DNA from: Anaerolineaceae bacterium
Lineage (GTDB): Bacteria > Chloroflexota > Anaerolineae > Anaerolineales > Anaerolineaceae
NCBI GenBank assembly: GCA_017417055.1
Contig: JAFPZX010000191.1
Coordinates: forward strand, 1-55,913
Direction of reading: 5' to 3'
DNA: 55,913 nt
The notes beneath the pieces were generated by a model. That model searched no databases, had not been told where the DNA came from, and was given only the letters and a program-made list of their open reading frames with translations. The position numbers and the translations under genes were made by a program. Every line of letters begins with the position of its first letter. The stretch's first letter is position 1. Positions 36,378 through 38,370 of the stretch are shown one piece after another.

Positions 36378-37160
36378 ATGCGCAGAATTGTATTTCTATT
36401 GATTTTTTTGTTTTTATGTCCGATTGACTATTGTTATTCGGATATGGATTTGACATCAGAATTATCCCGAACCGCATCAGATAATTATTCAATAAAGGTT
36501 CTCCTTTACCACAACATTTCGGCAGTTGAGACAGATCAAAATAATCCTTATGTGGTTTCTCTTGCAAAATTTGAAGAACAGATGAACTGGCTGAAAGTAA
36601 ACGGATATGAATGTGTGACTGTAAGTGATATGTTTCAGAAGTTTGTTTCGGGTGAGCTCATAGGGAAAATTGCGGTAATCACTTTCGACGACGGATATCC
36701 GGATGTTTACACTTACGCATTTCCGATTCTTTCCGCCTTTGGATTTCCGGCCACGACCTATCTTGTCGCGGAAAAGATCGATTCACCTAAAAACCTCACA
36801 GAGGATATGATTCGTGATTTATATAAAGCCGGTTGGGAGATTGGCAGCCATTCCCTGACACATTCAGATTTGATGATCCATGAAAATCTCGATACTGAGA
36901 TCTGTGGCTCACGAAATATGATTGCAGCGATGACAGGTATCCCTTTGTCAGATGTGGTTTCCTTTGCATATCCTTATGGAAACGCGGACGAAACTGTAAC
37001 GACAAAGGTCTGGAAATGCGGTTATCAATCGGGAGCGGGGCTTGGACAGATTCCCGTCAGTTCATCTCAAAATCCTTATTATTTTTCAAGACATCCTGTG
37101 ACTTCTGATATGACGATCCAAGACTTCAGTTCTCTATTTATCTCTGAAGGTGAGAAATGA
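36378..37160 (+). CDS. secreted polysaccharide deacetylase
   Basis: In this 260-aa protein a signal peptide (MRRIVFLLIFLFL...) is followed by a NodB-fold carbohydrate esterase family 4 domain. The catalytic TFDDGYPDVYTYAFPILSAFGFPATTYLV contains the Asp-Asp pair, EIGSHSLTHSDL supplies the His metal ligands, and VVSFAYPYGNADE is the third motif. It removes acetyl groups from peptidoglycan or another N-acetylated glycan outside the cell. ATG 36378 is chosen because it starts the signal peptide. The stop overlaps the next ATG. Confidence 0.92.
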   Translation: MRRIVFLLIFLFLCPIDYCYSDMDLTSELSRTASDNYSIKVLLYHNISAVETDQNNPYVVSLAKFEEQMNWLKVNGYECVTVSDMFQKFVSGELIGKIAVITFDDGYPDVYTYAFPILSAFGFPATTYLVAEKIDSPKNLTEDMIRDLYKAGWEIGSHSLTHSDLMIHENLDTEICGSRNMIAAMTGIPLSDVVSFAYPYGNADETVTTKVWKCGYQSGAGLGQIPVSSSQNPYYFSRHPVTSDMTIQDFSSLFISEGEK

Positions 37161-37771
37161 ACCAGGACAATGGAAATATTCTGATGAAACTGATCTATCT
37201 GTGTATGGATCATCTGATGCATAATCCGAAAAGAGCGATCATCATTCTATTTGTCATTTTCATTCTTACGATGGTAGCAGGTGAGCTCATCGGAGCTATG
37301 AGAAATTCGGAAATAATTTTTTTACCTACAGCCATCCCGCTTTTATCAGGAAAATCAGGTGATTATTTTACATTACCGGAAATTAACGACCATGGGGCTG
37401 TAGATCTCACACCACACGCAGAGATTACAGTGTCACCAACATCGGAAGTGATAATTGTGAAATCAGAAACACCAATACCAACCGCAGCAAAAACTGTTTC
37501 CTGTATTTCGGATCTTGATATTTCCATCGGAAAGATGGCTTATATAGATTTTCCAGGAGGTTTTTCCACTGAAATCAATGTCAGATACCGGACTGAGGAT
37601 CCAAACATTGTCACCGGAACTGTAAAATCAGGAGATAAGGTTTACCTCCTTGAAGGTCCTGTATGTCAATCCGGATCCATATGGTGGAAAATCAACTCTG
37701 ACTCACAGAAAATTATCGGCTGGATCCCGGAAAAAATAGCGTCAAAACCACTAATAAGGCTCAAGGAATAA
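37157..37771 (+). CDS. membrane-anchored bacterial SH3 protein
   Basis: In this 204-aa protein one transmembrane helix (AIIILFVIFILTMVAGELIGAM, about 28-50) is followed by a Thr/Pro-rich linker and a C-terminal SH3b domain (FSTEINVRYRTEDPNIVTGTVKSGDKVYLLEGPV...WWKINSDSQKIIGWIPEKIA). Such domains usually bind peptidoglycan. It is the last gene of the envelope operon, overlapping the deacetylase gene by 4 nt. Confidence 0.85.
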   Translation: MNQDNGNILMKLIYLCMDHLMHNPKRAIIILFVIFILTMVAGELIGAMRNSEIIFLPTAIPLLSGKSGDYFTLPEINDHGAVDLTPHAEITVSPTSEVIIVKSETPIPTAAKTVSCISDLDISIGKMAYIDFPGGFSTEINVRYRTEDPNIVTGTVKSGDKVYLLEGPVCQSGSIWWKINSDSQKIIGWIPEKIASKPLIRLKE

Positions 37772-37877
37772 TTCATTCAATTAGTATTTATTATAAATTG
37801 GTAATGGATTAGAAACTCATTAGAATGGTTGATAAACACTTGAAATCCGGGTGGAAAAAGGGTATTATAAGAATATG

Positions 37878-37969
37878 AAAAGGGAGTAGCCAACCGCAAA
37901 AAGCGGAGCCCCCGCCGTCAGTACGGGGATTTGATGATCACCCGGCTAAGCATAACAGGCGAGACTTTT
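37878..37969 (+). promoter_or_regulatory. yybP-ykoY (Mn2+) riboswitch aptamer
   Basis: The sequence carries the conserved blocks of the manganese riboswitch in order. The P1 strand AAAAG runs into GGGAGTAGC, then a P2 hairpin (CCGC-AAAAA-GCGG), GCCGTCAGTACGG, ACCCGGCT, and AGGCGAGACTTTT, which pairs back to P1. The P1 3' strand (CTTTT) is also the 5' arm of the following terminator. Ligand binding should therefore favour P1 and antitermination, i.e. an ON switch, as known for several members. Confidence 0.88.
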
Positions 37970-38005
37970 ATACGACAAGCGTCGTGATAAAAGCCTCGTT
38001 TTTTA
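37960..38005 (+). terminator. riboswitch-controlled terminator
   Basis: CGAG-A-CTTTTAT-ACGAC and its partner GTCGT-(G)-ATAAAAG-C-CTCG form a long stem with an AAGC loop followed by six Ts. It overlaps the aptamer's P1 strand at 37965-37969. Confidence 0.88.
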
Positions 38006-38051
38006 TTCACGGCGACCACAACGCAGAATAATCTGCAGAAGGAGAATAACA

Positions 38052-38156
38052 ATGTTCGGTTTCATCATTTTCGTTATTGTAATGTCTTTCATTGGCTCGC
38101 TGTTTTCTGGCCGTTGCCATCATCACCATCATCACTGCGGCGGTTTCGGCGGCTGA
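38052..38156 (+). CDS. 34-aa membrane microprotein with CHHHHHHC tail
   Basis: ATG 38052 follows an excellent AGAAGGAG Shine-Dalgarno (spacing 7), 47 nt after the riboswitch terminator. The product has one hydrophobic helix (FGFIIFVIVMSFIGSLF) and then a metal-binding tail of six His bracketed by two Cys, ending in a Gly/Phe stretch. It is too short for usual gene finders. Because it is the first ORF behind a manganese riboswitch, a role in Mn2+ or other divalent metal binding at the membrane is a reasonable inference. The frame ends at TGA 38154 and continues in phase into a second His-rich ORF. Confidence 0.65.
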   Translation: MFGFIIFVIVMSFIGSLFSGRCHHHHHHCGGFGG

Positions 38157-38159
38157 GGA

Positions 38160-38219
38160 ATGGGGCATCATCACCATCATCATGGTCATTGCCACCATCA
38201 TCACTGCCATCATTGGTAA
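38160..38219 (+). CDS. 19-aa His/Cys-rich micro-ORF
   Basis: Starting three bases after the TGA of the previous ORF and in the same frame, this 19-codon ORF encodes almost only His, with two Cys, two Gly and a final Trp (MGHHHHHHGHCHHHHCHHW). It could be translated by coupling or by TGA read-through, giving a 54-codon protein with two His clusters. It could also be the remnant of a single longer gene with a stop mutation. Confidence 0.45.
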   Translation: MGHHHHHHGHCHHHHCHHW

Positions 38220-38278
38220 CATCGGCTTAGAATAAACAGCCATCAGCTGGAATTTTGGTATGCTTAACTCAAAACTAG

Positions 38279-38308
38279 GCCCCGGATCTTGACTTCATGA
38301 TCCGGGGC
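38279..38308 (+). terminator. terminator after the His-rich ORFs
   Basis: GCCCCGGATC and GATCCGGGGC form a perfect 10-bp stem around a 10-nt loop, 60 nt after the second ORF. It lies between that ORF and the convergent flavin reductase gene and may serve both. Confidence 0.8.
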
Positions 38309-38370
38309 TTAGAAATAATTATCTCAGAATAATTGATTTACTGCTAAATCGATCGTTTTGTCCTAATCTG

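Follow-up and report, generated by a model that had tools for sequence, protein, structure and literature searches.

We analysed a 55,913-nucleotide stretch of Anaerolineaceae DNA (contig JAFPZX010000191.1, hereafter the window) and found in it a unit of about 450 bases, in which promoter-like hexamers are followed by a structured leader, a Shine-Dalgarno sequence and a short open reading frame (ORF). The leader is very probably a switch of the manganese (yybP-ykoY) class, and we are equally confident that its sole target is one membrane microprotein. A first-pass annotation had proposed such a switch with His-rich membrane microproteins as its only output; the proposal stands in that the ORF is conserved and under purifying selection, but not in its division of the coding region into 34-aa and 19-aa products, nor in the uniqueness that it claimed. 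The class of the RNA, the anatomy of the switch, the single gene, the constraint on its coding sequence and the single-gene layout are supported by the data described below.

Layout of the locus

In a 4.4 Mb bin (completeness 85%, contamination 5.5%) the window makes up contig C105. Upstream of the unit lies a gene that gave a weak SH3-like match; it ends at 37771 and is itself located behind a polysaccharide deacetylase gene. The downstream neighbour is a flavin oxidoreductase gene on the reverse strand. The following elements were assigned, with the basis of the assignment in parentheses:

37840..37868, forward strand: promoter-like hexamers TTGAAA-17-TATTAT, directly 5' of the aptamer (consensus scan)
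37873..37971, forward strand: compact aptamer of the yybP-ykoY (manganese) class (alignment of 11 complete copies, pair counts, canonical leaders)
37878-37882/37965-37969, forward strand: aptamer helix P1.1 (alignment, pair counts)
37883-37889, forward strand: aptamer loop L1, GGAGUAG (alignment, pair counts)
37889-37891/37958-37960, forward strand: aptamer helix P1.2 (alignment, pair counts)
37894-37906, forward strand: aptamer helix P2 (alignment, pair counts)
37914-37916/37944-37946, forward strand: aptamer helix P3.1 (alignment, pair counts)
37917-37923, forward strand: aptamer loop L3, GUCAGUA (presumed Mn-site A at 37920)
37925-37930/37937-37942, forward strand: aptamer helix P3.2 (alignment, pair counts)
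37959..38004, forward strand: intrinsic terminator with six U, formed with the 3' strand of P1.1 (folds)
37980..38014, forward strand: antiterminator, CGUCGUGA (37980-37987) with UCACGGCG (38007-38014), mutually exclusive with the terminator (pair counts, 10 copies)
38039..38044, forward strand: Shine-Dalgarno sequence AAGGAG (sequence)
38052..38156, forward strand: 5' part of the type-1 microprotein gene, coding for 34 aa up to an in-frame TGA (38154-38156)
38160..38219, forward strand: in-frame remainder of the type-1 gene, readable as a 19-aa His/Cys ORF (sequence, frame in relatives)
38275..38312, forward strand: hairpin 3' of the gene, with a weak U run in the window copy (fold, -30.2 kcal/mol)

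The consensus scan returned five promoter-like hexamers in the region against 2.0 expected, and by eye most other copies of the unit, G000 C25 excepted, were preceded by a similar sequence. The strong Shine-Dalgarno sequence noted in the first-pass annotation is indeed present, and so is the hairpin of the terminator described after the ORFs, which in the window is not followed by a good U run. By eye, a hairpin with a T run follows the gene in G013 C4, G012 C25, G000 C48 and G006 C3, and none was seen after the gene in G005 C64. A 78-aa ORF on the reverse strand (38007-38243) mirrors the His codons of the microprotein gene.

Class and structure of the leader RNA

An aptamer-like core can be recognized at 37873-37971, as expected from the earlier description of a well-formed yybP-ykoY aptamer, but Rfam lends it no support: with cmscan at permissive thresholds RF00080 (gathering score 45 bits) did not match the window at any E value up to 10. 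Of the controls, the E. coli mntP leader scored 44.9 bits (E 3.7e-11), 0.1 bit below the cut-off, and the alx leader of the same species had no RF00080 match. The mntP leaders of two other genomes (G195 and G009) were unmatched at E 0.5, a gathering-level match was absent from all of 20 Firmicutes loci, and of 101 relatives none exceeded the cut-off, the best reaching 36.7 bits. Because the mntP leader falls below the cut-off and alx and the other leaders are unmatched, RF00080 is not a reliable guide to short leaders. Nevertheless, the window leader is clearly further from RF00080 than the mntP leader, which marks the element as divergent. Other RNA classes gave in the permissive cmscan only weak matches, each below the cut-off of its own family.

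A model built solely from copies of the window element (R1) scored 10.1 bits on E. coli mntP, no better than a chance match in the same search, and matched alx only partially (8 bits). The core motifs are common to the window element and canonical leaders of the same family, and GGGAGUAGCC and CAGGCGAGAC are likewise found in the E. coli mntP leader. The assignment to yybP-ykoY rests on these motifs, on model R1 and on the genes downstream of related leaders (see below), and the RNA class is well supported.

The window leader has kept GGAGUAG, GUCANUA and GCGAGAC, and its fold was more stable than that of 200 out of 200 shuffled sequences (z -4.27). Eleven copies with a complete core were aligned (alignment A4); G000 C93, G000 C25 and G005 C64, whose core is incomplete, were left out. 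In the window and the 10 other complete copies the L1 sequence GGAGUAG faces GCRAGAC, as in canonical leaders. GGGAGUAGCCA, CCGUCA, UACGG and GGCGAGAC are invariant in the alignment, and L3 reads GUCANUAC, with UCA constant in 11/11 rows. By hand, with no L. lactis sequence aligned, this UCA was matched to U39-C40-A41 in the Mn site of L. lactis (PMC9190785), where A41 in L3 coordinates Mn and U44 is a phosphate ligand. By the same hand match, the place of U44 reads A in window-type aptamers.

In the hand-drawn structure 97.8% of the cells were paired across the 11 copies, with changes on both sides in three pairs, and sliding the structure by 1-3 columns reduced pairing to 22-50%. No variation at all was seen in 13 of 21 aptamer pairs; the number of double-changed pairs was reached by 39/500 shuffles, and the number of pair types by 475/500. 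Covariation support for the aptamer structure is therefore modest. Of the four helices (P1-P4) that surround a four-way junction in this class, P1, P2 and P3 are present and P4 is absent or at most minimal; by eye, some Firmicutes leaders located before P-type ATPase genes look as short at the place of P4.

Expression platform

The terminator part was aligned for 10 copies (alignment A3), from which G005 C57, a copy devoid of the terminator, was also omitted. When the 58 bases from GGCGAGAC onward were folded alone, the terminator was the lowest-energy structure in nine of the ten copies, the exception being G000 C128, where the antiterminator was favoured. When the P1.1 strand was withheld from the fold, the antiterminator formed in all ten copies, with one mismatch in G006 C3. 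These folds, together with the pair counts, predict that the P1.1 switch helix competes with the expression platform, and the terminator that the first-pass annotation placed in overlap with the aptamer was recovered at 37959-38004, where it uses the 3' strand of P1.1. In the antiterminator 79/80 cells were paired (hand register, better of two candidates per copy), two double compensations were seen (C-G to U-A and U-A to A-U), and shuffling whole arms attained this pairing in 33/2000 trials.

From P1.1, the terminator and the covarying antiterminator taken together we predict that metal turns the switch ON, the direction being deduced from the folds, and transcriptional control of this kind appears likely. 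Antitermination by metal has a precedent in L. lactis (PMC9190785); in one review, Mn riboswitches are called 'OFF' switches.

The microprotein gene and its product

The 34-aa ORF of the window has a hydrophobic N-terminus and a CHHHHHHC motif. Its in-frame stop is absent from all six other type-1 copies, in which the frame stays open for 47-57 aa. The 34-aa and 19-aa ORFs annotated earlier do both exist, but they are parts of a single gene of about 55 aa that is truncated in the window; the single frame in the six other copies rules out two separate small genes. Reading of TGA as a sense codon is disfavoured because an upstream ORF of the window ends in TGA (37158-37160). In the window copy just the first 34 aa of the protein can still be made, and this copy is probably disabled, partly or wholly.

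Intact type-1 proteins carry a single helix at the N-terminus and a tail rich in His and Cys. A second type (71-73 aa) has the helix region and the His run in common with type 1 and differs in the tail, which additionally contains Gly, Tyr and Arg, whereas the addition in type 1 is Cys. The pooled pN/pS ratio of seven type-1 copies (21 pairs) was 0.14, and that of the helix part 0.32; the type-1 protein is under purifying selection, and its coding status is well supported. For type 2 three pairs gave 0.18, 0.29 and 0.29, with G000 C128, which runs off its contig, left out. Intact type 1 had no Pfam match, two type-2 proteins matched DUF3309 below its cut-off (E 0.37 and 0.57), and none of three microproteins was matched by NCBIfam.

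The best 17-residue hydropathy window covered residues 2-18 (2.3-2.6), and a low-confidence structure model of an intact relative (mean pLDDT 59.5) had one helix at residues 2-19. The Arg that follows the helix suggests a cytosolic tail. Clusters of His and Cys usually favour Zn, Ni, Co or Cu over Mn. In the cell the tail rather probably binds a transition metal.

Distribution and decay of the unit

A search of 147 genomes of the family with R1 found 14 copies in five genomes, and the same five had both strong aptamer and strong protein matches. All five carriers are rumen Flexilinea-like Anaerolineaceae; sister copies were found in uncultured Chloroflexi RUG13159, RUG11948 and RUG13631 and in Flexilinea sp. 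RGIG2505. Ten further genomes of the family had weak protein matches only (E 0.002-0.09), and among 366 genomes sampled from the class a protein match was found only in that of the window. Across 348 G187-family genomes the A5 protein profile had no match, in a search run with no positive control.

All 12 protein copies follow the 3' part of an aptamer, and 10 of them a complete core. Thus the recurrence that the first-pass annotation had named as a check was borne out: the ORF is kept downstream of homologous switches, and at the low pN/pS given above. Three of the 14 R1 matches (G005 C64, G000 C93 and G000 C25) are devoid of GGGAGUAG, and two of these, G000 C25 and G005 C64, precede protein copies. 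Type 2 is complete in G000, G006, G012 and G013, and G005 has only pieces of it. Type 1 occupies the same place in the window, G012, G006 and G013, in some of them with adjoining insertions, and in view of this common place a mobile repeat was rejected for type 1. Phage origin was also rejected: the phage collection searched gave no match, and the motif occurred in no viral contig.

Several copies are eroded. GGGAGUAG was lost from the type-1 aptamer of G005 C64 and from G000 C93, G005 C57 kept the aptamer and lost the terminator and the ORF, and of G000 C68 and G005 C10 only tails are left. The stop codon of the window copy fits this turnover. The gene is lineage-specific and decaying. The bin G000 (C25, C48, C93, C128) holds a near-G012 copy of the locus along with copies from another strain; as G000 C48 is nearly the G012 sequence, G000 looks like a mixture of strains.

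Related leaders and the genes that follow them

R1 was run on the 147 family genomes, on 397 genomes of the G187 family (to which locus L118, from Lachnospiraceae, belongs) and on 396 of the class; 50 of the 52 places found in the G187 family were read. A pattern scan of GTDB contigs returned 38 stretches, seven from Chloroflexi/Flexilinea and 31 from Firmicutes. Outside the five carriers, R1 leaders precede genes for P-type ATPase, Na/Ca-exchanger, OadB and MntP (Pfam, one example each), and in Anaerolineae TerC-like and DedA-like genes (judged by sequence).

At least five of the 50 places (L141, L153, L170, L190, L172) had an R1 leader followed by a gene for a 55-77 aa membrane protein with no His tail. 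Such His-less microproteins were seen as the first gene after Mn-class switches at L118, L120, L135, L153, L170, L190 and L172, in Lachnospiraceae and their kin. A tiny membrane protein had been put forward as a new kind of output; a His-rich one as sole target holds, its uniqueness does not, since several Lachnospiraceae have His-less ones.

Some other leaders deserve mention. At L157, L159 and L160 (G187 family), leaders of the same shape precede genes for 140-154 aa proteins; their L3 is GUCUUCUUGG, in which the Mn-coordinating A is apparently U, and they are possibly a variant with another ligand. Canonical-looking Mn switches stand before a VCA0040-like (undecaprenyl phosphate translocase-like, Pfam) gene at L064 and, by eye, before DedA-like genes at L066, L206, L207 and L208; both families are lipid-carrier flippases. 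Mn-class switches precede flotillin-like proteins at L165, L178 and L183 (by eye), and OadB-type sodium pump subunits at L100 (Pfam), L149, L154 and L163 (by eye).

MntP in genomes with and without the unit

Each of the five carriers has one MntP homologue, and no switch was detected before it: with filters off, R1 gave 12 bits or less in those loci. Two non-carriers were searched for MntP, with one match in G009 and none in G004. In G009, which belongs to the same genus and is devoid of the unit, a leader with a score of 20.4 bits precedes mntP. The five carriers and G009 appear to have different subtypes of MntP; therefore we do not claim a rewiring of mntP.

Function of the unit

We propose that the unit is a stand-alone metal-response gene, whose promoter would give rise to an RNA beginning with the manganese-class aptamer. 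With no metal bound, the 3' strand of P1.1 would join the long terminator and transcription would stop. Mn2+, bound between L1 and L3, would hold P1.1 together, leaving the other half of the terminator to pair downstream as antiterminator, and the gene would be transcribed. The gene would encode a membrane microprotein of 47-57 aa (type 1) or 71-73 aa (type 2), in which a single N-terminal helix precedes a His-rich tail predicted to be cytosolic. Made at an excess of Mn2+ or of another transition metal that fills the aptamer, this protein would most likely serve as a membrane-tethered metal sink or carrier. To this reading, a metal buffer induced by excess under an Mn-class switch, we assign close to an even chance.

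The microprotein could instead be a regulator, its His tail reading the metal and its helix binding a metal transporter, be it the MntP homologue, an importer or an ATPase. That the helix region is common to both protein types while the tails differ would suit this role, as would the other membrane microproteins that stand behind Mn-class switches in Lachnospiraceae, and the MntS precedent, E. coli MntS being thought to act on MntP (PMC4361602). The difference between the switchless mntP of the carriers and the leader-bearing mntP of G009 points the same way, but with MntP subtypes that look different a loss of the switch cannot be read from it. The unit stands alone with no linked partner gene, and MntS is induced at low Mn, that is, in the opposite direction. 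A regulator is unlikely, although not negligibly so; provided that the tail binds metal, we lean mildly towards the buffer.

A different trigger was also considered, namely that in these species the Mn-class RNA has Ni, Co, Cd, Zn or Fe as its physiological signal and the His/Cys tail in turn binds the metal concerned. The composition of the tail suits such metals, and the aptamer has diverged from RF00080. According to a review (PMC11477304), Co2+, Cd2+ and Ni2+ are bound by Mn riboswitches as well. Against this, UCA in L3 is unchanged in the complete copies and R1 finds leaders of Mn-export genes. Another trigger seems improbable. Still less probable is that the gene is fast-evolving and dispensable, with the window copy a pseudogene and the unit doing little. 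The restriction of strong matches to five of 147 genomes, the broken copies in G005 and G000 and the stop in the window copy would agree with it; the pN/pS of 0.14, the compensatory changes in the RNA, the place common to four genomes and the existence of two protein types speak against it.

Returning to the buffer, a broader proposal can be made tentatively, at somewhat less than even chances: the Mn-class switch would be wired solely to a paralogous pair of membrane-anchored His/Cys-rich metal-binding microproteins, with buffering at the membrane replacing export, and the pair would form a branch within a larger, unrecognised set of Mn-switch membrane microproteins in rumen and gut bacteria. 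The conserved single-gene unit suggests that metal control has a branch for buffering or regulation, which curated RNA and protein family models miss. In the cited papers the outputs named for manganese riboswitches are exporters and other large membrane proteins, with which a His-rich microprotein contrasts. A literature search on riboswitches with small or His-rich proteins and on Flexilinea gave no His-rich target among the matches listed; an earlier mention, for example in the 2015 discovery papers, may exist.

Comparison with known systems

With yybP-ykoY (RF00080) the window element shares L1 GGAGUAG, an L3 with UCA, GCGAGAC and a P1.1 switch helix that overlaps the terminator, and related leaders precede MntP, TerC-like, P-type ATPase and Na/Ca-exchanger genes. 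It differs in being compact, with P1.1 AAAAG/CUUUU, a three-pair P3.1 and no clear P4, in being unrecognised by RF00080, and in having a His-rich microprotein as target. The Lachnospiraceae microproteins are likewise hydrophobic, 55-77 aa long and encoded as the first gene behind a switch of this kind, but they have no His tail and no A5 profile match (348 genomes, no positive control). E. coli MntS, likened by description, is also a very small protein under manganese control (PMC4361602); it is induced at low Mn, whereas the window-type protein, which combines a membrane helix with a His tail, is encoded behind a putative metal-ON switch. The Ni-binding Hpn and Hpn-2 of Helicobacter, likened by description, are small, His-rich and present as two paralogues confined to one lineage (PMC4671568), whereas the N-terminal membrane helix and the riboswitch belong to the window-type protein.
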